64,000 nucleotides of DNA from NCBI GenBank assembly GCA_022496805.1, contig CM040092.1:13596113-13660112 (forward strand), in the 5' to 3' direction. Below the pieces are notes generated by a model. The model saw nothing but the letters and a program-made list of their open reading frames with translations, ran no database searches and was not told where the DNA came from. Positions 4,286 through 52,982 of the stretch are shown piece after piece (within the stretch, counting starts at the first letter, position 1; every line of letters begins with the position of its first letter). This DNA is from Pohlia nutans (taxonomy: Eukaryota; Streptophyta; Bryopsida; Bryales; Mniaceae). Made by a program: the position numbers and the translations under genes.

Positions 4286-4736
4286 TTAACCCCAAAACGT
4301 CCTCATTCCTCTCCAAATTCGGCAGTTTTGCAAAGATGCATCATAAAATGCAACCCACAAATATTTGCACTTGATGTATGAATAAAAGTTGTACATTACA
4401 AATTTGAGATTCTATCCATATAGTTAGATCTGCGATTGCAATCACCAATATTTTTGTACAAAATTTGAAACTTGAAATTGAAAATTCTTTTGTAATTTGA
4501 TTACAAATAAGATATTGACAAATCATCTCCTCTCTAATCATGTTGTAGTGATTCCATGAAATTTCACAAATCATCTCCTATCTAATGAGATCACAGTATC
4601 ACACATACATGAAGCTAACTTCCTATAAAATATATAGTAAAAAATCCACGCTCTAAAAAGTCAATGACGGATGAGAAAATTGTGTTTAATTATGTACATC
4701 GTCCACTTTCTAGACGACTGGACGTTTAGGGGTTAA
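4286..4736 (+). mobile_element. TTAA-flanked MITE, family A (internally deleted)
   Basis: The left end is TTAA-CCCCAAAACGTCC and the right end GGACGTTTAG-GGGTTAA, an inverted pair flanked by TTAA on both sides. The left 250 bp matches other family-A copies (cattataaaatgcaac, then aataaaagttgtacatta). Part of the middle is missing, giving 451 bp instead of about 580. A subterminal hairpin (CGTC...GACG) lies just inside the right end. No coding capacity. Confidence 0.85.
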
Positions 4737-5437
4737 AGATTTAACTATTCTTTCTCCGCAAATGGGCTGATCAACAATGTTATTTTTTAATCATTAAATA
4801 TGAAAGAAGAGTACCAAAAAGTTACAGTTTCTTTCATAAACATTTTTCGTTCATTTCTTGAAAATGTATTTCAAACTAAAGGAAAATTTAGTTTGAAATG
4901 ATTGGCTAAAGTTGTGAGATTTGGAATATACTTAAAGATGTAACGTATTTTTCATTTGGAACACCTCGAGATCTAGGTTTAATTTTCATAAAATAACATG
5001 TTGAACTAGTTTTGTCGTCAAAAAAATGAAAAAACTAGTTGCACATGTATTTTGATTGTCAGAGCAGTGTTGGCTCAATTGGAAGGCACTTCCGAGGTTG
5101 TTTTTGTTTGACAGCTTTCAATAAGCGGTTTGCAAGTTGCTTCCAACATCCTTCATCCAACTTCCCCACTTTCCAATTTTTACAGATCCTTTTCTATTCA
5201 GGAATTATAGCATCTTCAAAGACCAAGGAAAAGGCAAACTTTGAATTTGAGTTTTCATTTTGGTTACACTCAATGAGAGCATAGACTTCCATTCCCATGA
5301 ATATTGGGCCTTGAAACTCGTGTTATGTTTTTGGGTAACTCAAATATTTCTTTAAAAATTAATTTAAAACTTTTTATGCAAGGTACTTATGAATGCATGC
5401 TTGATTTTAGAAAAAAAAATGCTGAGGTATTTAAGGG

Positions 5438-5441
5438 TTAA
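5438..5441. mobile_element. solitary TTAA element end
   Basis: GTATTTAAGGGTTAA resembles the right terminus of the TTAA elements, but no matching left end was found nearby. It may be a truncated copy or chance. Confidence 0.25.
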
Positions 5442-6070
5442 CTATACATATTAGTTTCAAGATAATTTAGTATTGTAATGAAAGTGTAATAGTAACAAAT
5501 GTGTTATTATTAAGGATAGACTTTACTTGTATTTACACAAACACTCTCCTATTGGATGTTGTAGTATTCCATCACTTCAAAACGAGGTTACTTCATCCAA
5601 TTTTTGAACTCCTTCATGTACATTCACAATAAAATAAACTCTAACTCTATAGGGTTAAAAAATATTTTGAATACAATCCATGAAATGATAATTGTTACCC
5701 TGTGATTGAGATGGAGGTTGTTCATACAAAAGTAAAAAAATATAACCTACATATGACAAAACTACCCTTCACTCACTCTAAAAGGTTTAAATATTTTCTT
5801 TCAACATTTGTAAACTTGGAAGATTCTACACCAAGCTAGATTTCTTTTGAGTGGAAATATAAGGAAATCCAACCACTTTCTACATATGATTCCATGAGTG
5901 TAAATGACCTTTGAGTAAAACTTGCGATTGTGCTACTCTACATTATGATTAGTTTAATATATAACTAGTTCAAATCCAAGTGATGTTTAAATTCTAAGCA
6001 TGTTGTCAATGGTTAATAATTTTATCAATTTTACATGGCATTTTAAATTCCACTGATGACCGTAGGTAGG
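5442..6070. other. AT-rich intergenic sequence
   Basis: Nothing recognisable beyond AT-rich sequence. Confidence 0.6.
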
Positions 6071-6075
6071 AGTTG

Positions 6076-6652
6076 GTTTAGAAAAAAGGTATTGACAACT
6101 ATAGGTTCCACTTGTGGTTTTCCAATGGTTGTAGGGTTTGTAAGTGAGCCAGCAAGACGGTAGTCAACAACAGTTCTAAACAACAACAGTTCTAGGACAG
6201 GGTTTTCTATGATGTAACCTAGCCTTTCATATCTTTGGATAGTCTTTCCATGACTGTTCCCATTCCGCCCTCAAAGACCATTATGTGAAGTAACCTAGTC
6301 TTTCACATCTTATTCAATTTCATGGGCTTTCACTTTGTCAATGGTGGTGCGGAGAGAAGGAGAGCCCTTTTTTTGTTTAGGAAAATGGTATTGATGACTA
6401 TAGGCTTGTAGGGTTTTCAAGCGAGCCGGCAATCCGTGAGCGAGCAGTCGACAATTCTAGGGTAAGGTTTTCTATGATGTAACATTTCTATGATGTAACC
6501 TAGCTTTTCATATCCTTGGATGGATAGCTTTTCACGATTGAATTCCGTCCTCAAAGACCATTATAGGAAATAACCTTTCCTTTCACGTCTTATTCAATTT
6601 CATGGCCTTTCACTTTGTCACTGGTGGTGCGGAGAAAAGCGGAGCCCTAGTA
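6076..6652. repeat. tandem duplication, about 290 bp per unit
   Basis: Unit 1 (about 6076-6368) and unit 2 (about 6375-6652) both start GTTTAG(A/G)AAAA..GGTATTGA, share ggttttctatgatgtaacct and the ccgtcctcaaagaccatta block, and end in GGTGGTGCGGAGA.AA..GGAGCCCT. Unit 2 carries an extra duplicated 'tctatgatgtaac'. Several substitutions and small indels separate them, so this is an older duplication. No coding potential seen. Confidence 0.85.
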
Positions 6653-7720
6653 ATAATAATTTTGTCACTTAATGTAACATCCTTAAACTTGAAAACATAG
6701 GTCTTTCTTCAACAATGCTATTGCCAAAGAATAATTCTTCAACAGTAGCATCATTAAATTTTAATAAAAGATCAATGCTACTCCCAGTATTTCAATTGAA
6801 CTTCAAGGGAACCATTCTCATTTGTCAATAGTAACACTTTTGCACAAAGACCTATGTCTTCATATTCAAGAATGTTATAGAATTGATTTGAACCCACGCA
6901 TATATAAACTAAGCCCAATGCACAAAATATAATTAATTTTGGTGAAAAGAATATACTCTATCATTTATTTCAACTCTTATGAATACTAGAGCAATGCTTC
7001 TAGTTTAACACCTAAAGGACGAAAGATTAATGGATATAAAATTACAAATTCAATTAATCGTGTTGTGAGAAACAAGAGACGTTAGCAAAAAAAATTACTT
7101 CTACTTGGTGCGTTAATGAGTTTTTTTTTTGCAATGGTGGTATTTTTTTAGCTAGATGGAAGCTCGCTCCTACTCTCACTTGCATGTTGCCCCTTATTTG
7201 GAACCCCGACTGATTTTTATTTTATTTTAAATTTTTCCCCTTTTTTGCACTTGATCAATTGGTTTCCACTCTTTCAAAGAAATTTTTTAACAAGAAATGA
7301 TCGTATTGTGAAAAATGTAATTCAAATTTGTCTCGATAAAAAACAAATAAATTTGAACAAAAGAAAGTTCACATAGGACCTACTCAAAACTACTAAAAAT
7401 AAATAAATATTAGACCCAACTTAAGCTTCTTAATCCTTTAGGAGTTAAATTTTAAAAAATCTATAAAATGACAAATTGTAGGAAACGTGTCAAAATGATG
7501 GGACACGTGTCAAAGGTACTTGCAATTTGTAATGCCCCATGAATGATAGAAGGCACTTTGTTGCATTTTTCTAAAATGAAAAGAGAATGTCGGTTGCTCA
7601 CAGCCTTGGCATCTTTATGATGCTCATTTTCTGGTTTCTCCTCTGAATTGAAATGACACAGATTGTTTTAAAAAAAAGAAGCTAAAAAAAGAGAACGTGC
7701 GGCAACTTACAATACTTGGG
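6653..7720. other. AT-rich intergenic sequence
   Basis: No gene recognised. A short direct repeat (acgtgtcaaa) occurs at about 7483 and 7504. Confidence 0.55.
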
Positions 7721-10045: not shown

Positions 10046-10100
<55 letters not shown>

Positions 10101-12184: not shown

Positions 12185-12994
12185 TTAACCCCTAACTACA
12201 TGAGCGTCCATTTTTTGGATGATGTATAGAATCAATGTACCGTTTTTCATCTGCAGTGATTTTTTTCATCCATTTAATAAATTACAATATTTCTTCAAGT
12301 TGTTACTTTCGTGTAAGTGAAGTCCGATTAAGAAATAAATAAAATTTGAATTTACTAGGTCCTTCCATTCTATGTGAGCTTTCATTATGACAAAAATAGG
12401 AATTTAAGGTTTTGAGCTATAAAATGCACACTAAATCCATTCTTTGAAGGTGACATACAAATGAAAGTTGTAGATGATGACTTTTCAATGACTTCCATAC
12501 ACTTGAATTAAGCAATAGTGTCAAAATATGTTTAAATTTGATTTAAAAAGAGTTTATTGTTTTAATTATATGAAAAATACAAAAATACTCATTATCTTTT
12601 GCATAACGTGCAATATTTCAATCTATAAAATTATCTTTTAATTTCTTACAAAAAGATCTCGAGAAACCTCTATGGAACCATAATAAGTTTCAAATGAACA
12701 ACTTCACTACCGTTGAAGCACAATGATTTCAACCAATCATAATGAAATTCAAGATGAGAGTACTAAAATTGTAATTTTAGTGATTTTTCAAAGTTTTTTT
12801 TGTGTAAATTCATTTGAAAAATATCCAGACATTTTATTTCAAATTCAACTGTACAGATGTTTTTAATAAGGATGTCTTACATATTGGTATGCTCTTTAGA
12901 GTTGAAGCTCAAAAGAGTTAAAGAAGCCTCATTTTATAATACATTTTAGAATACATTTAGGTATTGCCAAACCCCTCTAGGCACTTAGGATTAA
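12185..12994 (-). mobile_element. TTAA-flanked MITE, family E
   Basis: The left end is TTAA-CCCCTAACTACATGAGCG; the right end CCTCTAGGCACTTAG-GATTAA is slightly decayed. It matches, in opposite orientation, the copy at 26186-27548 over its whole length (for example TTTCATT.TGACAAA and CATACAAATGAAAGTTG). About 810 bp. A TCCATTTTTTGGA hairpin lies inside the left end. Its right TTAA is shared with the next element. Confidence 0.8.
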
Positions 12995-13902
12995 CCCTTG
13001 AACGTCCTCACTCCTCTCCAAATTCGGCAATTTTGCACAGATGCATTATAAAATGCAACTAAAAAGGATATTTTGAACTTCATGTATCAATAAAACTTGT
13101 ACATTATGAATTTTAGATTCTATCCATACAGTTAGATTTGCGATTGCTATCACCAATATTTTGTACAAAAGTTGAAACTTGAAATTCAAAATATTTTGTA
13201 ATTCGATTACAAACAAGATATTGACAATAGAGTTAACAAAAAAGAAGTGCATCTAACTTCCCTTTTTGCTCTACTTCTAACTTCTGTATTGAACTATAGT
13301 TGGGTTGAAAACTTGAATAGTGTCATGTCATAGATTGTCCCCTTGTGGGCCATAGACTTGGAGCTTTGGTGGAAGGTGTCGGAGCCATAGCGAGGTATGG
13401 AGAATAATAATAGTGCCTTGTTTTAGATTGTCTCCCAACTTGTTATAAACTAGTTTTGGTCTATTTATATTTCAGTACGAGTTCAAGAGGAATTCAACAC
13501 CAGTTTGCCAAAACTTTCCTCTTTGGGCTGACTTTTTTGTTAACTCTAATCTCTGGATGAAATTTGTTGTGATGGGTTAAAATGTAATACTCTAAATGTA
13601 GTGATTTTTGGAGTTTTTTTGGTTGCTTAATTTTATGAGTTTTATTTATTTGTTTTTATTTTTCAAGAGCACATTTAGGCTAAAATCTTCGAATTTTTTG
13701 GTGAATAACTGCGACATAAAACGAGGCATAAAATTTTCACAAATAATTCCCTTACTAATCGGATCACACATGCATGAACCTATCTTGCCATAGTATTTTA
13801 TAGTATTTGTTTTCATTGCCAAAAAGTACATAACGGATGAGAAAACGTGAATGATATTTGTACATCGTCCAAAAAATGAACGGTTGGGTAGTTAAGAATC
13901 AA
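12991..13902 (+). mobile_element. TTAA-flanked MITE, family A, with a 319-bp insertion
   Basis: The left end TTAA-CCCTTGAACGTCC joins directly to the previous element through a single TTAA. The right end (GGTAGTTA then AGAATCAA) is decayed. The interior matches the family-A copy at 34653-35228 except for the insertion at 13229-13547; without it the length is about 590 bp, the family norm. Confidence 0.78.
13229..13547. mobile_element. small TIR element nested in a family-A MITE
   Basis: The ends are a perfect inverted repeat, AGAGTTAACAAAAAAG and its complement, flanked by AAT on both sides (13226-13228 and 13548-13550). Uninterrupted relatives read attgacaatttgtggatg here, so the insertion and its 3-bp duplication are seen directly. 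319 bp, no coding capacity, superfamily unclear. Confidence 0.8.
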
Positions 13903-14277: not shown

Positions 14278-14865
14278 CTAACCCCTAAACGTAACAGCGT
14301 CCAAAAACTGAACTACTAACAGATTCAAACGCACCCCACGTTCTCATCAATGCTTGGATGAAAGTCATCCATTTTTTTGGAGATACTTCACCAAGTTGTT
14401 GTCCTATCTAATGGTTGGATTTAGTCATACTTGAGTACATATTTTTCTAAAATTACAAATGTAGAAGTATGTCAAGTCGTTGACCAAGCCAAAATTGCAT
14501 TGATTGTAGTTCAAAAGTGGCCTTGCAAAAATGAGGTCATAGATTTAAGGCACACAAAAATTTCAAAGAATCACCACGTTTAAGAGTATCTCATTTCAAA
14601 CTCATTCCAACAAATTTTACTCAAAAGATATTAAAAATTTGTTTGTAATCGAATTTAGAAGGAATTTTTAATTTTAACTTTCAAAATTGATAATTAAATA
14701 TTGGTGATAGTATTAGTGAATCAAACCGTACGAATGGAACCTAAAATTCAAAATCTAGAACTTTCATTTGTATATCAATTCCAAAATATTCTTCTAAATG
14801 GGAGTTTATGATGATTTTTCTCAAATTGCCAATTCCTGGGACACCCTGGTACGTTTAGGGGCTAA
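14278..14865 (-). mobile_element. TTAA-type MITE flanked by CTAA, divergent family A
   Basis: The left terminus is CTAA-CCCCTAAACG and the right CGTTTAGGGG-CTAA. The identical four bases are in direct, not inverted, orientation, which marks them as a target duplication. The interior (attggtgatag, then cctaaaattcaaaat) is a diverged reverse-oriented family-A sequence. 588 bp. Confidence 0.8.
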
Positions 14866-18145: not shown

Positions 18146-18732
18146 TGAACCCCTAAGTGACTAGGCGTTCATTTCTTGGACGACATACAAATTTCATCCA
18201 TTTTTCTCATCCCTCGTGCACTTTTTGTAGTGTAGACTTTTTACTATAGATTTTATGGGAAGTTAGCTTTATGCATGTGTGAACCAATTAGAAAGGGGAA
18301 TGATTTGTGAAAAATTTAGGCCTCATTTCATATTGCAATGATTCACCAAAAATTTCTTAGATCTTACTTCAAAACTAATCAAAAATGATCTTGAAAAGGT
18401 CAACTCATAAAATTAAGCAACCAAAAAATCTCCAAAAATCACTACACTTAGAGCATTACATTTCAACCCATCATAACAAATTTCATCTACAAATTGTCAA
18501 TATATTGTTCGTAATCAAATTACAAAATAATTTTGAATTTGAAGTTTCAAAATTTATATTAAAATACTGGTGATAGCAATCATAGATCTAACCACATGGA
18601 TAGAATTTAAAATTCATAATGTACAACTTTTATTCATACATCAAGTTCAAAATATCCCTCTCAGTTGCATTTTATAATGCATCATTGCAAAATTGCCCAA
18701 TCTGGAGAAGGCGGTGGGTATTTAGGGGTTAA
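18146..18732 (-). mobile_element. TTAA-type MITE, family A
   Basis: The left end is TGAA-CCCCTAAGTGACTAGGCG (first position mutated) and the right end TATTTAGGGG-TTAA. The body is reverse-oriented family A (CTCCAAAAATCACTACACTT, then ATGTACAACTTTTATTCA). 587 bp. Confidence 0.85.
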
Positions 18733-19189
18733 ACAAACAAATAATCTAAGTATTCAAAATTGAAATTTGGAGGTCGAATATAATGCATGCAGGGATGTGC
18801 TTACTTGCTCTTTGTTTATTAATTCATGTGACATTATTCCCATTAACTCTTATAGACATACTAAGCCCCACGGGCTTACATTTGTTTTGGGAAGATTGTT
18901 GCTCATAACTTCTACTCCGTTGAACCAAATTGGGTTTTAAAAATGCCAAAAAAATAATATTTAAGGCATCTATACTTCTTTAGAATAGAACCAAAGTAAA
19001 TAAAATAAACAGTCATGTTTAAAATGGAGTTAAAAAAGATTTTGGGTGTGAAAATCAGAAAATCCATGTCCTTTAAGGATTAACAAGAATCTCAAGATTC
19101 CAAAGATACTTCAATCCTCTGGTGAATAATGTTATAGCATGTAACAGATTTTTGGTATGTTTAAACTTCTAGTTGTTCAAACGTAACCT

Positions 19190-19737
19190 TTAACCCTTTA
19201 ACGTCCCAGTTCATTGCTGTTTTCAAAGATTCATTATAAAATGTTTGATGAAAACCAAAAATGGAGTTGATGTACAAAGAAAAGTTGCAAATGTCAATGT
19301 GAAGATCACATCTGTACGGTTGGATTTATCATATTTTTTTAAAATATTTTTTTATTAATTTTGCAAGCTTTTCTTTTGAAATTCAATTGAAAATCATGAA
19401 TTGACGGATTTAAAAAAAAAATTATTGGAATGAAATTGGAATAACATGCACTACGAGATGGTATGGTTTCCATTATTTGATTCTACTTATTTTGGAAAAT
19501 CATCTTCAAGGTCTCACTTTTTGAACTAAGAATGAAACTTGACATAAACCACTTCTGTTGTTTTTTCAAAAATCATAATAACCTATTTTGAAGATCCAAA
19601 CCGTACAAATGATAGTGAACTTGCACAAGAACCATGAGAAATTTTGGTGAATGAAAACTGTCCAATTTGAATGGAATTCTAACAGTTTGAATCTGTGCAC
19701 CGTCCACTATGTGGACGCAGGTGCCTGAAAGGGTTAA
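19190..19737 (+). mobile_element. TTAA-flanked MITE, family B
   Basis: The ends are TTAA-CCCTTTAACGTCCC and GGTGCCTGAAAGGG-TTAA. A subterminal hairpin CGTCCAC-TAT-GTGGACG lies just inside the right end. It matches the copies at 24046-25047 (same orientation) and 28182-28729 (opposite). 548 bp, no coding capacity. Confidence 0.88.
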
Positions 19738-20396: not shown

Positions 20397-20783
20397 TTAA
20401 CCCTTAAACGTCAAGGTAAGCCCCATGGGCTTATTTATGAGAGAATAATGAAGAAAAAAGTGGATTTTCTCAACCAAATCAAGCGAGGATTGGTGCATTG
20501 GAAAACTATTGAAAAAGCGATCTAGATTCCAAATTTGCGCCTCATTTGGGAGATTGTGGAAACATTGGCAAGCAATCAAAGTTATCAAAATGAGTAGGAG
20601 TTGAGGTTGGGGCAGCTGAGGTCGTTTTTTGAAAAGTGCCGCAATGCTACAGTGTTGGCCAGCAGTGGCCAGCAGAGCCGTTTTTCATTTTTTTCGTTTT
20701 TTATTTTTATTTTTTTATCCCTCCGAAAATTTAGATGCCTTCCGGGCTGCCCCGCCCAGGGCCTCTTGACGTTTAAGGGTTAA
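20397..20783 (+). mobile_element. TTAA-flanked MITE with perfect 15-bp TIR
   Basis: The left end TTAA-CCCTTAAACGTCAAG is exactly inverted at the right end (CTTGACGTTTAAGGG-TTAA). A hairpin TAAGCCC-CAT-GGGCTTA sits just inside the left end. The perfect TIR suggests this is one of the younger copies. 387 bp; internal open frames are short and unrelated to any transposase I know. Confidence 0.88.
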
Positions 20784-21400: not shown

Positions 21401-21959
21401 TTAACCCTTAAACGTCCACACTACAATTATTTGGTCAAACCTCATCAATTCCTCACATTTTAAAACATATTATATGTTTTTGATATTTTTGTCATATAAT
21501 TTATTGTTAAATAAATTTACCTTGATTTTTCCATAATTATTTGAATAAAAATGAATTTCGTAAGTTTTTCAAAGTCTTTTCTTGTAAAAATCATAGTAAT
21601 TATAAAAATACTTAAAATAGTATGATTTTTTAAGGGAAAATATAAATATTAGTGATGAGCAACAAGGTGTAGGTGGCAAGCTTCTTGAGCTTACATAAAA
21701 AGATATTTGATAGGAAAACGTTTTCTTCAGAGTATATTGGAATTTTAAAGTTTTGAGCTTTAAAGTGCTGTAAAAAAAAAAACGCAATTTTAACAATTTT
21801 AAAGAATGATAAATTGAACTAGAAAGTAAAAAATAGGCCCTACACTTTCTTAGTTGGGACCATGTTCATTTGCAGTTAGGAATTAGGTGAAAATCAACGT
21901 TTGACTAAAAATCGACCAAACATGGTCTCACGAGGCTCCTTGCACGCTTTTGGGTTAAA
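21401..21959 (+). mobile_element. TTAA-flanked MITE
   Basis: The ends are TTAA-CCCTTAAACGTCC and GCACGCTTTTGGG-TTAA. The interior does not match the other families in the window closely. 559 bp. The right end is more diverged than the left. Confidence 0.65.
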
Positions 21960-21999: not shown

Positions 22000-22855
22000 T
22001 GAGATGGGATGGGAGAGGGGTGGGCAGAAATCACATGATGGAGATGACATGGCAGGAGACAAGTGGCACGTTCAGTGTCTGGAGAGGAGCGAAAGGGCCA
22101 CCACAATCCTAAAAGGGAGACAGAAGGAATGAAGGCAGGGTCCATGCTAGGGAGTTCCGGAACACACCAGTCTGACTCTTTCTTCATTACTCGCGCAACG
22201 GAACTTCAAGTCGGTTTGGAGCGGCCTTCGTTGCATCTCTCACTCGTTGCATGCCTTTTATCATTGCCTTCCTTTCTACTACGCCCCACATAGCATAATA
22301 GAGCAATGGGAGCCAACACCCTTTTGCAATGGGACCACAACCTAATTACAATTAGAAACTAAGTTTACGTGGCAATGACATGGTGGTCCCAAAATTCATG
22401 GAATACAAATGGCATTTCATAACATTCAGTAGCAAGGCACTACAGTAGATGGTGTGGAATATTCCACATCCAACAGTACTTCATCAGGAGATAAGTGGAC
22501 AGGTGGAGGCTCCAAGGTGATGAGCAGAGTACATGAAGGAAAGGCAGTGAGCATGAAGGCTACTGAATGTTGTGTCTTTCATTAAATGGATCTAAATGAA
22601 GATTCCCTTTCGATCCAGTTTTGAATAGGGTAACTCTTACCTTCTAGGCAGGCACTCAATCACCTGCAGCTGCACTGGCTGGACTTTCCCACTGTGAGCC
22701 GGCCCTCATTCCAATCATAATACCCCATGCAGCCTACTTTGATGTTGGAGGCCAAAATGACAATGCTTGCAAATTAATGCTTTTACGCATGTGCTGATTG
22801 CTTTCAAGATCAGGCAATCACTAAGACGAAGCAGAATTCAGAAAACCAAGCTGAA
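22000..22855. other. GC-richer intergenic patch with dispersed repeat R2
   Basis: No gene recognised. Bases about 22288-22425 (AGCATAATAGAGCA.TGGGAG and ACAATTAGAAACTAAGTT) recur at 59188-59320 with few differences, so this is a dispersed repeat. Open frames at 21984-22293 show no known motif. Confidence 0.6.
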
Positions 22856-23385
22856 TTAACCCCTAAAGGACTAACCATCCATTTTTTTGGATGGTTTTTT
22901 TATACCCCTGGTCAAAGGCCCAAAAATCAAGTGTTTTAGCTTTGTTGGAGTTGGCAGTTACGATACATTTTTTGACCGTTGGGATTGGAGAATAGACTTC
23001 GTTTGAAGATTTTTACACCATTAAGAGTTTTGAAATTTGAGTGTTCAAAATACAAAGGGCTTTCTTAAGAATGCTCCAATCATGCGTCTATTTAGTTTCT
23101 TCGCTTTCACTTTTTAATTATTTGTAAACACAACTTTTATCTACCTTAAATATAATTTTTGATATTAAATTTGTCAAACATATATTTATTTTGAATTTTT
23201 TACTCTTTACATGAATTTTTTTGTAAATATTTCAAATATCTTCCAAACATGTTGAAATTTTGTCATACCTTCATAATGTTGATGGTTATTTATGGAAAAT
23301 TATAAATTGTACAATGTGATATCTCAAATATGCAAATTGTAAGGCTTTGACTTTTACAAAACATGTGAGGACTTTTAGGGGTTAA
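22856..23385 (-). mobile_element. TTAA-flanked MITE
   Basis: The ends are TTAA-CCCCTAAAGGACTAACC and GAGGACTTTTAGGGG-TTAA. A strong subterminal hairpin CCATCCA-TTTTT-TGGATGG lies inside the left end. 530 bp, no coding capacity. Confidence 0.85.
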
Positions 23386-23426
23386 GGACTACATAACGCT
23401 AGTAGAAATCCTGACAAATCTTGCTT

Positions 23427-23659
23427 TTAACCCTTAAATGGTCTTAGGAGTTCCTCTCTACAATCCGTATTCAGTCTTATAATTGTTCAATTGTGGTTCA
23501 ATATATGAATTGTGATATATTTTCATATACATATTATTATGATTATTAATTGTACTTTGCACTGAAAAGTGTTTGGACATTGTTGTTTTGATCAAATACC
23601 ATCAAATACAGAATATACTATACATGCGCAAAGGGCTTTTTGGGCCTTTTAAGGGTTAA
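23427..23659 (-). mobile_element. short TTAA-flanked MITE
   Basis: The ends are TTAA-CCCTTAAATGG and GGCCTTTTAAGGG-TTAA. 233 bp, the size of family C, and the right end GGGCTTTTTGGGCC is similar to it, but the interior is diverged. Confidence 0.75.
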
Positions 23660-23913
23660 TTACTAAATTTTATCGTAACTTGTCCATAGTGATTGAAATT
23701 ATGATTTTAATTCACTATAGACAAGTCACAATGGAATTTAGTTGTTAAAGACATGTCGCATTTGACAAGATTTCTACCTAGTGTGTGCTTTTTTAATTTA
23801 GAATGTCCAATTTCTTTTTCTGGTTGATCTATAGTCCAATAGAACAACTTTGGTTATCCATGAATGAATAGTGTGACATATGTGCTGGAAAAAGGGTACA
23901 ATAGGTTATGCTT

Positions 23914-24041: not shown

Positions 24042-24143
24042 TACCTTAATCCTTTAATGTCACGATTCAACACTAATTTTGAAGATGTGTTAAAAAATGT
24101 TTGAAAAATAACAAAAATGGAGTCAATGTACAAAGCTAAATTG

Positions 24144-24144
<1 letters not shown>

Positions 24145-24214
<70 letters not shown>
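24145..24214. repeat. (TA)n microsatellite
   Basis: About 35 TA units inside a family-B element; the paralogues at 19190 and 28182 lack it. Confidence 0.98.
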
Positions 24215-24217
<3 letters not shown>

Positions 24218-24242
24218 ATTATTTGATTATGGAAAATTATGT

Positions 24243-24819
24243 TTAACCCCTAAATGCCTAGAGCCCTCTTCAGATTTGAAGGATTGCAAAGATGCATTAT
24301 AAAATGCAACTAAGAGGATATTTTGAACTTGATGTATGAATAAAAGTTGTACACTATGAAATTTAGATTCTATCCATATGGTTAGATCTATGATTTCTAT
24401 CACCAATATTTTGTATAAAATTCAAAATTCAAAATTCTTTTGTTATTCGATTTCAAATAAGATATTGACAATATGTGGATGAAATTTGGTGTGATTAGTT
24501 GATATATAATACTCTAAGTGTAGTGATTTTTGGAGATTTTTTGGTTGCATAATTGTATGAGTTGGCCTTTTCAAGAGCACTTTTGATTCGTTTTGAACTA
24601 AGATCTTAGAAATTTTTGGTGAATCATTGCAACATGAAATGTGGCCTAAAAAATTGATAAATATTTGCTTTCTAATCGGTTCACACATGCATGAAGCTAA
24701 CTTCCCATAAAATCTGTAGTAAAAAATCCACACTGCAAAAAGTGCATGACGAATGAGAAAACATGGATGAAATTTGTACATTGTCCAAAAAAATGGATGC
24801 CTAGGCATATAAGGGTTAT
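24243..24819 (+). mobile_element. TTAA-flanked MITE, family A, nested in family B
   Basis: The left end is TTAA-CCCCTAAATGCC and the right GCCTAGGCATATAAGGG-TTAT (last base mutated). Removing it plus one tetranucleotide restores ...TTTAAggtctcac, which corresponds to TCAAggtctcac at 19505-19520 and to an intact TTAA in the reverse copy at 28401-28404. 577 bp. Confidence 0.9.
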
Positions 24820-25189
24820 GGTCTCACTTTTTAAACTAAGAATGAAATTTGACATAAACCAATTATTTTATTTAAAAAAAAATCACAATATCTTATTTTG
24901 AAGGTCTATACTGTATAAATCATAGTCAACTAGCACAAGAACCAAGAGAAATTTGGATGGATAAAAACTGCCCATGTGTGTAGTCAAGACAATAATCTGA
25001 ATTTGTTCATCGTCCACTATGTGGACACAAACGCATCAAAGGGTTAAGAGCATGTTCTTTCATGGTTTCCATATTAAGGTTTGTAAAGGTGTGTTAGCAC
25101 TTGATGTTAGAAATGATGTTAGTAAGTAAAGTGAATCTAGTCATGAAATATGCTTTAATTCATTCCCAAGACCCCCACTAACTCCTCTT

Positions 25190-25734
25190 TTAACCCCTAA
25201 AGATCCTCACCCCTCTTCACATTTGGAGAATTGCAAAGATGCATTATAAAATGCAACTAGGAGGGAAATTTTGAACTTGATGAATGAATAAAAGTTGTAC
25301 ATTACGAATTTGAGATTCTACCCATGTGGTTAGATCTATGATTTTATCACCAATATTTGTGTATAAATTTTGAAACTTAAAATTTGATTATGTATAAGAC
25401 ATTGACAATCTATGGATGAAATTTTGTTGAGATGGGTTGAAATGTAATACTCTAAGGATAGTGATTTTTGGAGAATTTTTGGTTGTTTGATTTTTCCAAA
25501 GAGCACTTTTGAACTATGGACTTAGAAATTTTTGGTGAATCACTCCAATATGTAATATGGCATAAAAAATTCACAAATCATCCCCTTTCTAATTGGTGCA
25601 CATGTTTATAAAGCTATCTTGGCATAAAATTATGTAGTTTTTTTTGGATTGCAAAAAATGCACAACGGATGAGAAAATGGAGTTTGCTTTTGTACATCAT
25701 GCAAAAAATGCATGGTTGGATGTTGAGGGGTTAA
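25190..25734 (+). mobile_element. TTAA-flanked MITE, family A
   Basis: The ends are TTAA-CCCCTAAAGATCC and GGATGTTGAGGGG-TTAA. Subterminal hairpin CATGCA-AAAAA-TGCATG. The body is family A. 545 bp. Confidence 0.87.
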
Positions 25735-34652: not shown

Positions 34653-35228
34653 TTAACCCCTAAACGTCCTCACCTCTCTCTAAATTTTGAGAATTTCAAA
34701 AATGTATTATAAAATGTAACTAAGAGGGATATTTTTGAACTTGATATATGAATAAAAGTTGTACATTAAGAATATTTGATTCTATCCATACGATTAGATC
34801 TATAATTGCTAGGACCAATATTTTGTATAAAATTTGAAACTTAAAATTGAATATTCTTTTGTAATTTGATTACGAATAAGATATTGACAATTTGTGGATG
34901 AGATTTGTTGTGATGGGTTGAAATGTAATACTCTAAGTGTAGTGATTCTTGGAGATTTTTGGTTGCTTAATTTTATGAGTTGATTTTTCCAAGAGCACTT
35001 TTGAAGTAAGATCTTAGAAGTTTTTGGTGAATCACTGCAACATGAAATGGATCATAAAGAATTTCACAAACCATCCCCTTTCTAATCGGATCTCACATGC
35101 ATGAAACTAACTTTATATAAAATATATAGTAAAAAATCCACACTGCAAAAAGTCAATGACGGATGAGAAATCTGAGTTTGATTCTATACATCGTTCACTT
35201 TCTGAACGATTGGACAATTAGGGGTTAA
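34653..35228 (+). mobile_element. TTAA-flanked MITE, family A
   Basis: The ends are TTAA-CCCCTAAACGTCC and GGACAATTAGGGG-TTAA. Subterminal hairpin CGTTCA-CTTTC-TGAACG. This is the cleanest full-length family-A copy here (576 bp). It interrupts the duplicated segment whose other copy (60890-61250) lacks it. Confidence 0.9.
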
Positions 35229-36599: not shown

Positions 36600-36985
36600 G
36601 GTAGAAGCACCAGAAACTGTTAGGTACCAATTGTGGTCACCTATAAAAGCACGTGTTTCAACTTCAGGAGCTCCCAAGCACGTGTTTCAACTTCAGGAGT
36701 TCCCAAGCACGTGTTTCAACTTCAGGAGTTCCCAATCTAGTTATCACAAGCATTAATTATGAATACCAAGTTAGTAATCTGATTGGACTAGAAATGAAAG
36801 ACAGTCATTGGTACACCTACTAACATCAATAGTGGTCTATGCATATTAAGTTTGAAAATTTATAACAAAATCATATATTGTGAAAAAACTAATTAAAAGT
36901 TGAGATTGGTTATTAAACCCAAAGTTTTATGCACTGCAATTTTTTATCATTGAAAATCAGCTCTCCATGTAGGTTGAAATGCTTA
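36600..36985. repeat. dispersed repeat R1, copy 2
   Basis: Collinear with 21060-21400 and contains a 29-bp triplication (36647-36733) that copy 1 lacks. Confidence 0.85.
36647..36733. repeat. 29-bp unit repeated three times
   Basis: Three head-to-tail units start AAGCACGTGTTTCAACTTC and end GGAG(C/T)TCCC, at 36647, 36676 and 36705. Units 2 and 3 are identical and unit 1 differs at one base, so the amplification is recent. Confidence 0.95.
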
Positions 36986-37050
36986 AACTGATGGCAATTG
37001 TACCCCTTACATTATAGTAATCCTAGTTGATAGAGCTCAATTTGAGTGCA

Positions 37051-37289
37051 TTAACCCCTGAAGGACCAAGGATTCATGGTTTTAAAATGCCAATTTCAAC
37101 TGATCATATTGTGAAAAATATAATTAAGATGAGACCAAATTTTATGTCACCAGAATCAGTGAAGAACATTGTATGTGTTGGTCAAAAAATAAATGAAGTT
37201 GAACATAACAAAGTCTATCTAGAACCTACTCCAAACTGCTAAAACAAACATAAAGTCCAATTTGGGCTTCTTGGTCCTTTAAGGGTTAA
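37051..37289 (-). mobile_element. TTAA-flanked MITE, family C
   Basis: The ends are TTAA-CCCCTGAAGGACCAAG and CTTGGTCCTTTAAGGG-TTAA, so the TIR is about 16 bp. 239 bp; reverse orientation relative to 27627-27855. Confidence 0.9.
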
Positions 37290-39700: not shown

Positions 39701-40284
39701 TGAAATAAATTAGTTGTTGGACAATCTTGTGAGCCGAATCTCTTTGGGCGATTGCAAGCTACGGTCTACCAAGTGGGGGGTGCAGCTAGTGCAATTAAAA
39801 GCTGTGCAACTCATGCACTAGTGGTGTAGTGTGCACCTCTCAACTTTCAATTAAATAAAAAAATTCATCATTCAAAATAGGGTTTATGCTAGTACTTCCT
39901 CTTCAGCGATTGTTAAGTTTATTTTGAGACTTTGGGCTTTACTCAACAACCTTTTTTGTTTTTTTATCCACAAGGGGTAATTAAAGCCTTTTTTTACATA
40001 ACCTTCATAGCTAGGTTTTATGAAAAATGTATTTCATATCTCACCTCTGAAATTTGGCCATTATTTCATTTCCAAAAAAAATTTCAAAGAAAGATTTAAC
40101 TACACAAATTTTAAAAAAACAAAAACATCATGAAAAAACTAATTAAAAAATAATAAGCGTAATACCCAAAAAAATAAAATATAGTCGCTTTGTATGTACT
40201 TGTGGTATGTTGCTATAAATTTGTAAAGTTCAAATTTGATCCCCTTCTAGCATTTCCCATATTATAGGTGCACTTCACACTCGG
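39701..40284. other. AT-rich spacer
   Basis: No gene recognised. Confidence 0.5.
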
Positions 40285-40500
40285 GGGCTGCATTGTACTA
40301 AACATGTACGAGTATACGTGAGTGTACAAAAGGGGTATTAATTTGAACACTGTCGTATTACGTATACATACAATAAACATATTTAGAACTGAAAATATTC
40401 ACGTATACTTACATTAATATATTTAAAACAAAATATTTTTGTATACAAAGGTATTTAGACATATAACCTCTCGTATACAAGGGGTTTTTTAGAAGGGGTC
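40285..40500. repeat. dispersed repeat R3, copy 1
   Basis: About 215 bp matching 62160-62380: GGGGGCTGCA.TGTACTAAAC, GAACACTGTCGTAT, CATACAATAAACA and ATATAACCTCTCGTA. In the second location the repeat interrupts the F-box pseudogene, so it behaves as an insertion sequence. No clear TIR. Confidence 0.85.
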
Positions 40501-40564
40501 ATGAACGAATGTGATTCTCAAACATAATGTAGAGTGCACCCCAGGGACTTCACATGCACTTTTG

Positions 40565-42724: not shown

Positions 42725-42816
42725 TATGTTGTGAACAACCTACTGAGTGTGTATCAGATGTGGGAGATACGCAGAGTGTTTGATAAACTTGTGCAGAAGA
42801 GTGTTATTAGTTGGAG

Positions 42817-43000
42817 CACTACAAGGAGAAGGCGTCGCTTTTCACTTGGTAGGTGAGTCAAACAGCGTCACTTCGCACTCACTGTCCGGGCACTCAAGAC
42901 TTGATGAGTGCCATTCGTCACATAGGACAAGTGTGTACAGTGAACTCTACGTGAACTCTAACACTGTTTTGAGTGAGAAGCAACGCTTTTGCTAGTAGTG
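42817..43000. mobile_element. CACTA-type MITE (M1) inserted in the PPR pseudogene
   Basis: The left end CACTACAAGGAGAAGGCGTC is inverted relative to the right end CAACGCTTTTGCTAGTAGTG. Flanked by a 3-bp GAG duplication (42814-42816, 43001-43003), as expected for the CACTA (En/Spm) superfamily. 184 bp, one of four copies in this window. Confidence 0.92.
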
Positions 43001-43322
43001 GAGTGCTCATCATGGTTGAAAATTGACACAGGGATGTAATCTCATGGACTGGGATGATTGATATGTATGTCAAAAATGTGGAAGCATCCGGACTCTTTCT
43101 CCGAAGAAAATGGGATGGCTTCAAACCAGATGCTTTCACTTATGTGAGCATCCTGAATGCAGGGGCTTTGGAGTGGGTGGACGTTCATAGGAGGCCTTGA
43201 GTCAGATTTGCTTGTGGGCAGTGTGCTCGTTCACATGTATGCAAAGAGTGGCAGAATTGGCGATGCTCAACCAGCTTTTGACAAAATGAAGGCACATGGA
43301 ACACCATGATTGGTGGTTTTTG

Positions 43323-44676
43323 GAGAAACATACCCTACGATAGGGGTGCAAATGTGCTAAAAGGACCCTTTTGACTCAATTGACGCAAAGTACTGACTCC
43401 TTATGTTATAGTTGCTGCCAAAATGTGGCACAATATTATTGACCTAAACCAGCTTCAGAATTACTTTCACACGTGTATTCAAAATTGGTTTAGAGACTGT
43501 TTTTTGAAAAATAAAAATATGAGCAAACGTTGAGTATGTCTCCAAAAACCACGTGGTGCCCTCTTATACATTGTAGTGACCAGCTTTCATTTGGGGTACA
43601 TACTCTAATATCCAAATTAAAGAGTCCAAAAGCACGTTCAAAGCTTGATACCCTAAATTAAAATCTGTAAACATTTATCATCATGGAATATCAACACATG
43701 GTTCCCTTCTACTTCATAACACAAAGCTCTAGTCCAAGTTTTGTATAAATTTATCAACATTTGAGTTGCCAAAGCTTGTCGAAAACAAAAAGCATTTGTC
43801 AATATTCCATTCCCAAGTCTTTTTGGACCCCCTAAACATGGCAGTTAGAGCGCAAATTTTTGCTATAGGAAGTTTACGATTCACTGAAACACTCGAAGAA
43901 GTTTCAAGCCATTTGAATTAGCAAGTTGAATACAATTATTTTTAATATTGTCTTAGAATGAAAAAACTGCATTGTCAAAGTGTAAAGTGGGTGCCAACTA
44001 TTAACCGGGTATTTAACGGAGTGTAGGAGGGGCGGCAAAACTCTCCCTATACGTAGAATTGTCCTTATGCGTAAAATTGTGTTAGTGGGTAAAATTGTGT
44101 TGCAGTCTAATTTTTAACAGTTGCAGGCTGACAATGCAGACAATGCAAAGTGGATGAATGTAGTTTGGATGAACATGGCAATTAGGGTGATAGTTGGTAA
44201 GTAGCGGATAGGGTTGGTGGCGACTAGGGTTTGGAGAGAGGTTAACCCCTAAGCGTGCCAAATGTTGTTTTTCGTAACATTGGATGATTGAAACTTCGAA
44301 GAGCCGTTTCTCCTTCATTTAGTGTCGGAATTCAATGATAATTGTTGGGTTGGATTCTAAATCAAGTCTATTTTCTATATTATAAATCTTGCTTTAATCC
44401 AAGGTGTTGTGAAGAACATATCAAGAGGCATTTTGAACATATTTGGAGATCATAATTTAGAACGTCATGTAAGTTCTTTTACATATTTCTTGGGCGTTGT
44501 TATTGTGAACATACAACTCATTCATGTATTCTTTTTGTATACAAAACCCTTGTTGATCATAGAGGTAACTGGATGGAGTATGCTCTTTAATCTTGTTTAT
44601 AAATGATTTGGAGAATGACTGATGTATTGCAATGTAATCTGTTTTTCAACCGGTGAACTAAAGGCTAGAGGAGATT
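43323..44676. other. intergenic stretch
   Basis: No gene recognised. TTAA-CCCCTAAGCGTGCC at 44242 looks like the start of a TTAA element but has no recognised partner. Confidence 0.55.
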
Positions 44677-44846
44677 CACTACTAGCAAAGTTGTCGCTTC
44701 TCATTCAGAACAGTGTTAAATTTCAGTGTACACACTTGTCCTACGTGACGGATTGCACTCACCAAGTCTTGAACGCCTGAACAGTGACTGCAAAGTGGTG
44801 CCATTTGACTCACCTACTGAGTGAAAAGCGACGCCTTCTTGTAGTG
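44677..44846. mobile_element. CACTA-type MITE (M1), second copy
   Basis: The left CACTACTAGCAAAG.TGTCGCTTCTCA is inverted relative to the right AAAAGCGACGCCTTCTTGTAGTG. Flanked by ATT on both sides (44674-44676, 44847-44849). 170 bp. Confidence 0.92.
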
Positions 44847-44906
44847 ATTCAACTCGGAGGCTTGTCAAATAACCAATTGTCAGGAAGTTGGTCTGTGAGC
44901 CTTCTA

Positions 44907-45005
44907 TCATGTTGGCATCAACAATGTGGCTCCAGGATTTATCTGAGGAAGTCATGGAGACTATGTTTGTGCTCCTTTCCACCAATGATTTTAGCAGGGT
45001 TGCAT
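44907..45005 (+). pseudogene. possible F-box fragment
   Basis: The frame reads ASTMWLQDLSEEVMETMFVL then LSTNDFSRVASL, similar in wording to the F-box start at 39660 (SLPEEVMENVFTFLP). The expected VCKxW half is missing and no further domain follows, so this is at most a fragment. Confidence 0.4.
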
Positions 45006-45119
45006 CACTAGTAGCAGACCTGTCCTTTTTCATTCCCCACTTCGTAGCAACAGTGAACAGTGGTGGAATATTATGCTTATATTTATGTTTTTTTGTGACC
45101 AAAACCACTCACCAGCATT

Positions 45120-45990
45120 GACACAACCCATGTGCCTGGCGCGGTTTCATTCCCTCGGGGAGGTCACTTCCAAATATTACGTAACAACGTGCGAACAAGT
45201 GATTTTCAACCCCTATATACTTTTTTAAAAAGTTTGATTTGGCTCCAAATTTTTTAGTGTGGTCACATAATCATTGTATCTTTGATTTTAGAAAAATCTT
45301 ACTTCAATTGAATTCAAAACCAATTCTAAAAACACAATTGAAACTAGCTCTAAAATACAAAAAATAGTTGCATAGTGTATTTATTTACTTCAAAAATTTG
45401 TAAGAAATTAATTTGAACAAAGAAAATTCCCAAAATTTCACAATATAAACTTTCAACATAAAGAAACATCCTATAAAATTTTCAAGTTTTTTTATTGATT
45501 TTTTATAATGTAATATAGGGGGTCAAAGATTTGTTCGCACGTGATACACATAAAACACATTGAGTGAATTCCCCGGGTTCATTCCTTTTTCATTTATAGA
45601 AGGTGAAAAACGACACATTTCCTACTAGTGCATGTGTTTGTAAGACATGAAATTTCGGGGTGTCATAACCAAAATTGGCAGTTCTTCACGCCAGTACACT
45701 TCCACAAGTATCCTGGGATTGCATCTTGGGTCGTTGGTTGGGTTTTGTAAGTATCCTTGGATTGCATCTCGGGTCATTGGTTGGATTTTGTGGCTCGACC
45801 AGTATCCTTGGATTACATGTGTTCTCATAGATGTATTAGAACACATGTAATTGTATCATTTTTATAAATTGAAATGTATAAAATCATTGTTTCTCTGCTT
45901 GGTTTGTAGCGGTGTTTTTTATCCCTTTGCAATGGAATAAATCGCACCATTTGTCTAAAAATAAAAATAAAAATAAAAATAAATAATAAA
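45120..45990. other. intergenic stretch with short tandem repeat
   Basis: 45710-45815 holds three related units (GTATCCTTGGATT(A/G)CAT, then GGGTC.TTGGTTGG.TTT). No gene recognised. Confidence 0.55.
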
Positions 45991-48098: not shown

Positions 48099-48706
48099 TT
48101 AACCCCTAACTGCTCAACCATGCATATTTTGCATGATGTACAGAAGCAAACTTCGTTTTCTCATCCGTCATGCACTTTTTGTAGTGTGAAATTTTTGTTG
48201 AATTTTGTATGGAAAGTTAGCTTTATGCACATGTGATCCAATTAGAAAGTTGATGATTAATGAAACTTTTATGCCGCATTTCATGTTGCAGTGTTTCACC
48301 AAAAATTTCAAAGATTTTAGTCTAAAAGTGCTCTTGAAAAAGTCAATGCATAAAATTAAGCAACTAAAAAATCTCCAAAAATCACTACACTTAGAGTATT
48401 GCATTTCAATCCATCACAACAAATTTCATCCACAAATTGTCAATACCTTATTCGTAATCAAATTACAAAATAATTTTGAATTTTAACTTTCAAATTTTAT
48501 AGAAAAATATTGGTGATAGCAATCGCAGATCTAACCGTATGATAGGATCTAAAATTCACAATGTACAACTTTTATTGACAAATCAAATTCAAAATATCCC
48601 TCTTACATTGTAAAACATAAATCTTACACATTGTGTTTGATCTTACAATAATGCATCTTTGTAAAACTGTCCAATTTGGACAGTGGTGAGGACGTTTAGG
48701 GGTTAA
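48099..48706 (-). mobile_element. TTAA-flanked MITE, family A
   Basis: The ends are TTAA-CCCCTAACTGC and GAGGACGTTTAGGGG-TTAA. Hairpin ATGCA-TATTT-TGCAT. The body is reverse-oriented family A with a small local duplication (CTTACA.TTGT near 48600-48640). 608 bp. Confidence 0.88.
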
Positions 48707-49638: not shown

Positions 49639-49639
49639 A

Positions 49640-50610: not shown

Positions 50611-50611
50611 A

Positions 50612-51161
50612 TTAACCCCTAAGTGACCAATCGACCATTTTTTGATCGCAGCCCAAACAACAGTGACTGCCCATGGTCAAGAAATGACATTTTTCAAGTT
50701 TTGATTTTTTTGTCGAAATTGGAGGTGTTGATCATGTTTTAGTGTTGTTTGATGCATTTCATTTGCAATATTGAGGTTTGCTAAGGAATTTTTTCAAAGA
50801 CAAAGATCTCAATATTGTCCAAGTGTTATAAAACTTTCTATTTCGGGAAAGTGATGATCTCCCCGTTGAAATTTTTTCCTTTTTAAAATTTAGAATATAA
50901 TGTCTAGTTTTAACCAATCATAGTTACCAGATTTTAAATTCTAAAAATATAAATTGTAATTTTGATGAATATTAAAAGGTAAATGCTTCTAAATTCATTA
51001 ATGAGTATCTAAAACTATTTTTGGAAGTTTGACTGTACAGATAATTACTAAACATCATGCTTCTCATTTCCACTTTTGGACCAAATTTCATCAAAGTTGC
51101 AGAAGTAACATTTTATAACACATCTAGGTTTTCCTCTTACCCTCTATCATTTAGGGGTTAA
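50612..51161 (+). mobile_element. TTAA-flanked MITE, family D
   Basis: The ends are TTAA-CCCCTAAGTGACC and CTATCATTTAGGGG-TTAA. It matches 26494-27037 along its length. Hairpin CGACCA-TTTT-TTGATCG, imperfect. 550 bp. Confidence 0.88.
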
Positions 51162-52487
51162 GCTTGTTCTAAACTGATATTTCATTGATTTGTAATTGGG
51201 TAAAACCTAGGGTAAAAACTTCAAATACTCATATTTATCTAGTGTAAAGAAAATTGAAACCAATTCAACATTGGTTTAAACTCTAAACTATGTTATCTTC
51301 AAATACTTTTTTTTAAAATTAAATAAAATGAAAAGATTTAATTTTAATTTTATTTGTAGTATGTATCACAAATTTGATTTTATTCATGTTTTTCTATTTT
51401 TTTAAAAGCAATAAAAATATATCTTTTTATATAGAAAAGAATAGGAAAAAAAACAATAGTTTAAAAAACTTGCTATTTGAATTGACTAATAATATTTTGG
51501 TCATTGAGATTCACATATTTTACTCATGAATCCAATTTATAATTTTAACCAATCACATCAAATTTAAAAATCTAAAATAACTTTCAAAGATAATTTTTAA
51601 TCATCGTGTTATACATCTTCCTTTAGAAAGATTTTTTTTTTTTTTAATCAAAGATGTGAAAATCATAAGTTATAACACATCTAACTTTTACCGAATACAC
51701 ACAATTCTTTAGGTACACAACACCATTATGTATATGTATAAAAATATGCGTACATTTGTTCCTATCTATTATGACATATTTGGGTAGTCTTAATTTCAAG
51801 GTGACAAACATGGATTAATCACATATTAAATGACTTGTCACATGTGTATTGCTTGAACAATATATTTGTCATATTATGAAGTGTCATATTATTAAGGGTA
51901 GACTGTATAAAGGAAAAAAATTAGTACCTAGTGGTGTGATTGAAACACCTTCAAATAAGGTCACCATACTCATTATCATCACTAATCATGCTAAATATAG
52001 TTACTGTAGGTGGAGGGTAGGGTTGGCAACAAGTATTTTTTTAAATGCCAATTATTTTGGGTAATTGTTCTTGCAAAAATAGTTTTCTGTATGGTGGAAA
52101 AGAAAATCTTGAAGAATATTTGTGAACATTTCATTTGCTAAAGCTTATTTTGAATTTTTTTAAATATTCAACACAAATGTGTTGATCCCGCCCTCCACCT
52201 ACATTACTATCATTAATTAACATTTATTTTAATTGAATCACAATATTGACAAATAATAAAGAATTCAAATGTATTTAGTACCAATATGAATTATTTGTAC
52301 AATACATGAATAAGGTATACATTTTCAAAGAGTTAGAACATAAGCACACTATAAATGAACACTAAACTTGATGTTCAAAAGGTGTACATGTTCATAATGA
52401 ATATCTTCATTCTCGACAAGATGTAGTTAGATTTTAGCTAGGACACAATTCTAGAACAATGATGATTATGAGTGCACTGACCTTCCT
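51162..52487. other. AT-rich intergenic stretch
   Basis: No recognisable gene or paired element ends. Confidence 0.55.
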
Positions 52488-52740
52488 TTAACCCCTAAAG
52501 GATCAAGAAGCCCAAATTGGATCTCATGATTTTCTTGATAAATTTGAGTAGGTCTTATGTGAAGTTCCTTCTGTTCAATTTTTATTTTTATTTATTTTTA
52601 TTTTTTTATTTAACATATGAAATATTTTTCACTGATTACGGTGATAGAAAATTTGGTCCCATATGAATTATATTTCTCACAATATGACCTATTGAATTTG
52701 TCATTTTAGAATCATGAATCCTTGGTTCTTTTGGGGATAA
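52488..52740 (+). mobile_element. TTAA-flanked MITE, family C, head-to-head partner 1
   Basis: The left end is TTAA-CCCCTAAAGGATCAAG and the right end CTTGGTTCTTTTGGGG-ATAA. The terminal tetranucleotide is shared with the next, oppositely oriented copy. 253 bp. Confidence 0.88.
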
Positions 52741-52982
52741 CTCCTAAAGAACCAAGGATTCATGGTTTTAAAATGACAAATTAAAAAAATCATATTGTGA
52801 AAAATATAATTTAAATGGGACCAAATTTTATATCAGTGGAATTAGTGAAGAATATACATATACTGAATTTTTCTTAAAAAGAAAAATTGAACAAAAGAAA
52901 ACCTACATAAACTGACCTACTCAAAACTACTAAATTAAAAACATGAAGCCCCCTGTGGGCCTTATGGTCCTTTAGGGGTTAA
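52737..52982 (-). mobile_element. TTAA-flanked MITE, family C, head-to-head partner 2
   Basis: The left end is ATAA-CTCCTAAAGAACCAAG and the right end TATGGTCCTTTAGGGG-TTAA. Together with the previous copy it forms a near-palindrome of about 490 bp centred on ATAA. 246 bp. Confidence 0.88.

Follow-up and report, generated by a model that had tools for sequence, protein, structure and literature searches.

PiggyBac-type miniature transposons of a probable moss genome, and a palindrome near their tips

The piggyBac transposons are best known from animals and are a major tool for gene delivery; to our knowledge, their natural history has been written mainly from animal hosts. Here we describe a dense population of miniature inverted-repeat transposable elements (MITEs) in a land-plant genome, seen in a 64,000-nucleotide stretch of contig C8 (13,596,113-13,660,112; hereafter the window), which very probably belong to the piggyBac superfamily and would be mobilised in trans by autonomous copies elsewhere in the genome. 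Genome-wide counts refer to an assembly of 697,796,988 bases in 332 contigs.

The Trichoplusia ni piggyBac element (IFP2) shares with the elements described here the TTAA target, a CCC terminus, a DDD transposase with a related core, asymmetric ends and a palindrome at base pairs (bp) 17-33; in T. ni, the palindrome within this segment is bound by a dimer of the cysteine-rich domain (CRD), and the minor groove is narrowed there around a centre at about bp 25 (PMC7351741). It is 2,472 bp long (PMC10803768), as against 5.0-5.9 kb for the bounded transposase-bearing elements of the present genome. The palindrome here, moreover, has a different sequence that varies between families, and the right ends of the bounded elements carry RCCGTG at 26-31 and 57-62, with no evident second copy of the palindrome. 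PiggyBat of Myotis lucifugus, of the same superfamily, is reported to have a palindrome at bp 19-30 of its left tip and no counterpart on the right end (PMC11707139); it differs from the present elements in its palindrome and tip motifs, in its mammalian host and in a weaker protein match (E 2.3e-21). The mPok1 and mPok2 elements of the Daphnia Pokey family, as described, are likewise short copies of a piggyBac-superfamily element, in an animal rather than a land-plant host. Kolobok elements also duplicate TTAA but are described as having RR..YY termini (PMC9587614).

Among plants, a survey of MITEs in 207 genomes, four bryophytes included, recognises five superfamilies plus Micron; these resemble the present elements in being short, with terminal inverted repeats and a high copy number, but neither piggyBac nor TTAA is mentioned in the main text of the survey (PMC12550479). 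Two reports count against novelty: piggyBac is described as having been isolated from insects, fungi and plants (PMC10813416), and a table for a fern genome gives 1,230 PiggyBac-annotated copies, at 0.00% (PMC6890710). A search of the open-licence literature returned no title or abstract describing piggyBac MITEs in any land plant, mosses included, and among the transposase homologues listed (120 of 319 matches, without a name or entered as 'hypothetical protein'), none is named as coming from a land plant. PiggyBac MITEs are already known in animals; what is of interest here is the land-plant host, the scale and the palindromes.

Miniature elements of the window and of the genome

Independent pairing of the ends between window positions 4286 and 52982 gave 26 elements totalling 13,019 bp, the same number, and nearly the same extent, as the 26 elements and approximately 13 kb of the initial annotation. 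All-against-all BLAST (matches of at least 100 bp) sorted them into five families, of 8, 5, 3, 2 and 2 members, plus six singletons, in keeping with the minimum of five families plus singletons proposed earlier; the labels F1 to F5 used here need not correspond to the earlier letters A-E. The elements are 230-912 bp long after subtraction of the nested inserts of 24046-25047 and 26186-27548, and they are short, non-coding, of high copy number and bounded by inverted ends, as MITEs are. Within the window, members of a family show 69-88% identity over the longest pieces that align, while two copies of one 547-bp element outside it are 95.4% identical. They are listed here by family, without strand; each was placed by end pairing and grouped by BLAST, and any further comparison used is named in brackets.

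4286-4736: F1 (8 members in the window), 451 bp
12991-13902: F1, with a nested non-TTAA insertion at about 13228-13547 and a right flanking 4-mer TCAA (end pairing, BLAST, flanks)
14278-14865: F1-related, CTAA at both flanks; the site of the L041 right junction runs on without interruption at the TTAA at 14580 (end pairing, BLAST, junction comparison)
18146-18732: F1, bp 17-33 palindrome at left end
24243-24819: F1, nested in the F3 element 24046-25047; two empty-site copies in the window (empty-site comparison)
25190-25734: F1, palindrome CATGCA-N5-TGCATG at right end
34653-35228: F1, palindrome CGTTCA-N5-TGAACG at right end
48099-48706: F1, palindrome CATGCA-N5-TGCATG at left end
7005-7448: F2 (5 members)
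27627-27856: F2
37051-37289: F2
52488-52740: F2, abutting the next F2 copy, with one 4-mer in common
52737-52982: F2, sharing the 4-mer 52737-52740 with the preceding copy
19190-19737: F3 (3 members), first 26 bp 92% identical to the end of the L041 transposase element
24046-25047: F3, interrupted by the F1 element 24243-24819 (end pairing, empty-site comparison)
28182-28729: F3, carrying an uninterrupted TTAA empty site (end pairing, empty-site comparison)
12185-12994: F4 (2 members), empty site near 12655 (end pairing, empty-site comparison)
26186-27548: F4, interrupted by 26494-27037 (end pairing, empty-site comparison)
26494-27037: F5 (2 members), nested in F4 (end pairing, empty-site comparison)
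50612-51161: F5
18843-19083: window singleton
20397-20783: singleton within the set of 26, with 109 bp that resemble the end at 50615
21401-21958: window singleton; the site of the L049 right junction runs on without interruption at the TTAA inside the left tip (21408) (BLAST, junction comparison)
22856-23385: window singleton; a copy lies in L044 (557 bp aligned, 79%)
23427-23659: singleton that sits within an arm of an inverted repeat; the opposite arm is its TTAA empty site (end pairing, empty-site comparison)
29615-30192: window singleton

The flanking 4-mers are TTAA on both sides of 18 of the 26 elements and CTAA on both sides of one, with one side altered in the other seven, and CCC directly follows the 4-mer at 40 of the 52 ends, the other 12 starting differently. 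When TTAA is not required, the exact inner motif CCCYTWAANG is found at 23 sites in the window; before it, T stands at -4 in 22, T at -3 in 22, A at -2 in 21 and A at -1 in 21, while position -5 is mixed with a lean towards pyrimidines. Empty sites were recovered for three insertions in four comparisons; each shows one TTAA-type 4-mer, as against two at the filled site. The copy at 24243-24819 is absent from two sisters of its F3 host, which have TTAA (28182-28729) and TCAA (19190-19737) in its place; 26494-27037 is absent from the F4 sister 12185-12994, which has TCGA; and 23427-23659 is absent from the opposite arm of the inverted repeat, which has TTAA. These sites are consistent with a 4-bp TTAA duplication, the lack of which the initial annotation had named among the observations that would refute the piggyBac reading; because TTAA is palindromic, they alone cannot separate a TA from a TTAA target. 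The T at -4 is conserved (22/23), and a TA target is therefore excluded.

Two further cases are not counted. A possible empty site of the singleton 21401-21958 lies at 36705-36986, to which the left flank of the element corresponds up to the TTAA, but the score of the right flank was matched or beaten at 490 of 2,000 random places. The insertion of some 320 bp at 13228-13547, within the F1 element 12991-13902, had been considered as TTAAC..GTTAA, but sister copies show, by eye, an earlier start of the block and a duplication of 2 or 3 bp; with its inverted ends, which are close to GAGTTAACAAAAAAG..CTTTTTTGTTAACTC, it looks like a different small transposon. The inverted repeat struck in one arm by 23427-23659 spans 23397-23790, and the joined flanks of the insertion match the other arm over approximately 120 bp. 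A TATA-box-like motif, GATGCATTATAAAATGCA, lies some 50 bp inside the non-palindrome ends of F1 copies (e.g. 24243, 25190), with variants in other families.

The end motif TTAACCCYTWAACG, with up to two mismatches, occurs at 46 sites in the window, against 1.68 ± 1.44 expected from 100 dinucleotide shuffles (largest count 6). Genome-wide, there are 43,099 exact occurrences of the end motif (21,712 + 21,387 in the two strand counts) and 21 of the reversed-motif control (7 + 14). Twenty 10-kb regions, placed by hand at round coordinates on contigs C1-C10 (200 kb in all), contain 107 ends at up to two mismatches, as against 10 for the reversed motif. This corresponds to a background of approximately 34 ends per 64 kb, and the density in the window is somewhat high, yet not unusual for the host genome. 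The same 200 kb hold 34 paired elements amounting to 16,072 bases, some of the pairings possibly being wrong; extrapolated from this small, hand-placed sample, the MITE share of the genome is estimated to be on the order of 8%. A scan of IMG/VR for TTAACCCYTAAACGTC gave 7 matching stretches.

Transposase genes and the ends that bound them

A search of the genome with the profile of PF13843, the piggyBac transposase domain, gave 1,305 first-look candidates. Of these, 116 are scored matches, with E values from 1.6e-81 to 3.1e-74 and near-full coverage of the domain; none of the 14 control genomes gave any. By hand recount, 78 of the 116 listed matches have no internal stop. All 116 lie outside the window, the nearest listed on C8 starting at 14,673,344, and tblastn of eight transposase domains of the same genome against the window found nothing better than E = 0.18, so that at the level tested the statement of the initial annotation that no transposase lies here stands. 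Two weak collinear tblastn matches to one piggyBac transposase domain (62612-62865, E 0.18 each) may be a decayed remnant or may be due to chance.

The eight domains come from loci sampled from the listed places, 5.5 kb each. All eight are stop-free and all eight carry the DDD triad (T.DE, DNF.[TS]S, RGVD), which answers the proposed test for a piggyBac-type transposase; their pairwise identity is 38-75%. Two proteins scanned against Pfam matched PF13843 with E values of 1.3e-82 and 9.1e-82, and one sampled protein matched the solved piggyBac 6x67 (E 5.5e-35, with its triad aspartates opposite those of piggyBac) and piggyBat (E 2.3e-21). The C-termini of seven of the eight open frames are rich in cysteine and histidine, as judged by eye; in the two scanned proteins no cysteine-rich zinc family rose above the cut-off, the only one seen being Zn_ribbon_6 at 16.8 bits against a cut-off of 25. 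Two transposase loci, L039 on C17 and L052 on C3, share 1,200 bp of their 3' sides at 99.3% identity, which points to recent movement or duplication; the region has repeats approximately 40 bp apart.

For four loci the upstream side was also retrieved, and at three of them TTAACCC-type ends enclose the transposase gene. The elements so bounded -- E36, E37 and E40, of 5,035, 5,507 and 5,909 bp, respectively -- have stop-free PF13843 domains with the DDD triad; they are what the suggested genome search for autonomous copies with the same kind of ends was to look for, and within this sample no copy encodes another class of transposase, which would have spoken against piggyBac. The two tips of E37, and likewise those of E40, align with each other over 18-19 bp at 89%; the two elements are 74% identical over 1.6 kb including the transposase domain, and forced global alignments, which carry no significance scoring, show them alike inward from TTAA at both ends. 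The RCCGTG of the right ends of E36, E37 and E40 (loci L036, L037 and L040) stands at indices 26-31 and 57-62 from TTAA in all three, and the repeats are possibly a second recognition motif. Downstream, an end in the expected orientation was found at a distance of 1.3-1.9 kb at six of the eight transposase loci, and further 1.2-kb samples contained an end at six of ten, one of them in the opposite orientation.

At three transposase elements the right junction falls on a TTAA-type site, and in two of these cases the site is within a MITE of a kind present in the window, because the flanks beyond these junctions run uninterrupted in the window. That of L041 corresponds to 14580-14799 (93%) and that of L049 to 21408-21763 (81%), in both cases continuing through TTAA in the window, and that of L038 to 6274-6040 (73%), continuing through TTGA. 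L038 and L049 are themselves 85% identical over 727 bp, the match stopping no more than one base from GGGG-TTAA, with unrelated sequence beyond.

Nine ends from six transposase loci were also compared with the MITEs. The F3 element 19190-19737 agrees over its first 26 bp with the end of the L041 element (92%, E 1.2e-4), and 45 bp of a 736-bp MITE in L016 match the left end of E37 (82%, E 8e-7). Of the five window families, one is tied in this way to a transposase element by end sequence, and a reservation applies to each single family, whose membership in piggyBac would follow from its shared ends, target and palindrome.

The palindrome at bp 17-33

Counted from the first T of TTAA, indices 20-36 correspond to element bp 17-33, with the centre at bp 25. 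In this register at least five of six Watson-Crick pairs are formed in 30 of 137 ends, as against 3.1 with shuffled partners; other registers that were tried gave 0-5 ends. A test unselected for pairing, in which ends more than 70% alike were removed (134 of 194 kept), ranked four of the six stem pairs highest among 882 column pairs (z 3.6-4.3, as against 3.2 for the column pair ranked fifth). The stem sequence varies while the pairing is kept: CGTCCA..TGGACG, CGACCA..TGGTCG, CAACCA..TGGTTG, CATGCA..TGCATG and TAAGCC..GGCTTA are all found. Genome-wide, after the tip, there are 2,478 matches to the paired CGTCCA-N5-TGGACG, as against nine to the mispaired CGACCA-N5-TGGACG, these being two of the four cells of an incomplete test. 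The register and centre of the MITE palindrome are equal to those of the left-end palindrome of T. ni piggyBac. The right end of piggyBac has a second palindrome, at about bp 45-63; a possible counterpart near indices 50-66 of the other MITE end is in weak excess (4 of 107 ends, against 0.3), and no claim is made for it; by eye and without a count, the half-sites at the two ends of one element are alike in some F1 copies only.

By analogy with the T. ni CRD dimer, the differing palindromes are best read as homodimer sites whose specificity has drifted, reflecting different CRD specificities of different transposase lineages. Each lineage would then have its own CRD specificity, and the MITE families would follow through matched changes in both half-sites. 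It seems to us an even question whether the land plant hosts a long-lived piggyBac radiation with a huge MITE population in which the bp 17-33 palindrome serves as a lineage-specific recognition code. Several findings on the palindrome count against the piggyBac reading of the elements: the two outermost stem pairs are inconspicuous, at ranks 70 and 75 of 882; the palindrome reaches five of six pairs on exactly one end in only 16 of the 26 window elements and only 13 of 34 elements elsewhere, and on both ends in none of either; and the autonomous left ends (5' side of the gene) keep a partial palindrome, with four of six pairs in E37, two of six in E36 and two of six in E40.

What has to be weighed against a protein site is that the palindrome might be a selected nucleic-acid hairpin, or might arise during replication, when template switching corrects imperfect palindromes. 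The persistence of pairing while the stem sequence changes speaks for such an origin, and so does the excess of paired over mispaired forms in the two cells counted genome-wide; a drifting homodimer, however, would likewise yield matched half-sites. The coincidence of register and centre with the CRD-dimer palindrome of T. ni, and the occurrence of five or more pairs on one end at most, as for an asymmetric CRD site, argue against a hairpin or template switching, and we consider that explanation unlikely.

As to the superfamily, we hold with high confidence that the window elements are piggyBac MITEs, which would move by ordinary cut-and-paste in trans. Autonomous copies elsewhere in the genome would make the transposase and the MITEs would supply the ends; the enzyme would recognise these asymmetric ends, cleave at the CCY terminus and insert the element at TTAA with a 4-bp duplication. 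We infer the cutting chemistry, the CRD binding and the movement of these MITEs by these enzymes from the Trichoplusia enzyme. The initial annotation had arrived at piggyBac from ends and target, and its reading is now supported as well by the empty sites, by the PF13843 genes between such ends, by the TTAA junctions and by the palindrome register. The features found together are TTAA duplication, a CCY terminus, a copy that has ends of this kind and encodes a PF13843 DDD transposase, and a left-tip palindrome, the last known for piggyBac and piggyBat; the most conserved start of piggyBac elements is reported to be CCCTT (PMC10813416). Other observations pull the opposite way. No left end was found within 8 kb at L041; the left end of E36 was picked by motif (two mismatches) from several candidates, and the tips of E36 give no BLAST match to each other. 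In a control, 45 of 140 1.2-kb windows carry an end in a given orientation, which makes single downstream hits weak; the hit at L048 is an F1 MITE, and the 5.5 kb around L039 and around L042 contain no end. The junctions were seen on the right side only, with no two-junction empty site for any transposase-bearing element. Among the nine transposase ends compared, none matches four of the five window families or the singletons beyond the common tip, and the window matches of ten further downstream pieces look like MITE copies or known repeats.

Two other superfamilies, Kolobok and Sola3, likewise duplicate TTAA and might have made the MITEs. Kolobok was dropped as a source on end sequence, since its RR..YY termini do not agree with the CCC start of 40 of the 52 ends; TTAACCC-type elements, furthermore, encode PF13843 (the genome search was for PF13843, with the Sola and Kolobok families left out), and an origin from either superfamily is very improbable. 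An element of Tc1/mariner type, with a TA duplication and a terminal A, could mimic TTAA as T-TA-A, and the empty sites alone would be compatible with it. It was also dropped, and we give it the least chance of all: T is found at -4 in 22 of the 23 inner-motif sites, where a TA target would leave the base free, one element has CTAA on both sides, and the moss Tc1-like elements PpTc1/2 are described as starting with CAGT (PMC4054914), unlike the window ends. A different kind of doubt is whether the MITEs are relics of old bursts, their mobilisation being over. The identity of only 69-88% within the window families speaks for this, and the 95.4% identity of the two 547-bp copies and the 78 stop-free transposase matches speak against it; an ended mobilisation appears rather doubtful to us, though less so than the hairpin.

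Surroundings of the elements and significance of the population

The window also contains, at 54.2-57.0 kb (54200-57020), an intron-containing gene for an Lhcb9-like light-harvesting protein. The best solved relatives of its product are chains 7xqp_9 (295 bits) and 8htu_9 (294.5 bits), which we take to be Lhcb9 of the moss Physcomitrium, the next best scoring 249; its nearest named match is from Physcomitrium patens (64% identity over 99% of the query), while identity to flowering plants is approximately 50% over approximately 60% of the query. The host, which had been called a plant, can on this basis be narrowed to what is most likely a moss other than Physcomitrium. A direct repeat (55690-55922 and 55948-56202, 74%) lies within the gene, and the translations of 42800-45100 look, by eye, like a broken pentatricopeptide-repeat gene. 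Two dispersed repeat pairs, 40283-40501 with 62160-62381 and 22289-22416 with 59189-59316, are each 90.6% identical, and window 45154-45575 corresponds to positions 3909-4333 of L042, a 427-bp repeat (89.7% identical) that lies just downstream of the transposase gene there.

This land plant appears to have a large piggyBac population of its own, with tens of thousands of piggyBac-type ends and numerous transposase genes in one genome. It offers a plant setting for studying how one transposase superfamily spawns very many MITEs, and a large set of diverged pairs of ends and transposases for working out how ends are recognised; if the palindrome is indeed a lineage-specific code, the co-evolution of transposase and DNA site would be readable in a single genome. 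It is also a candidate source of plant-adapted piggyBac systems, and the repeat annotation of bryophytes should include TTAA/CCY elements.

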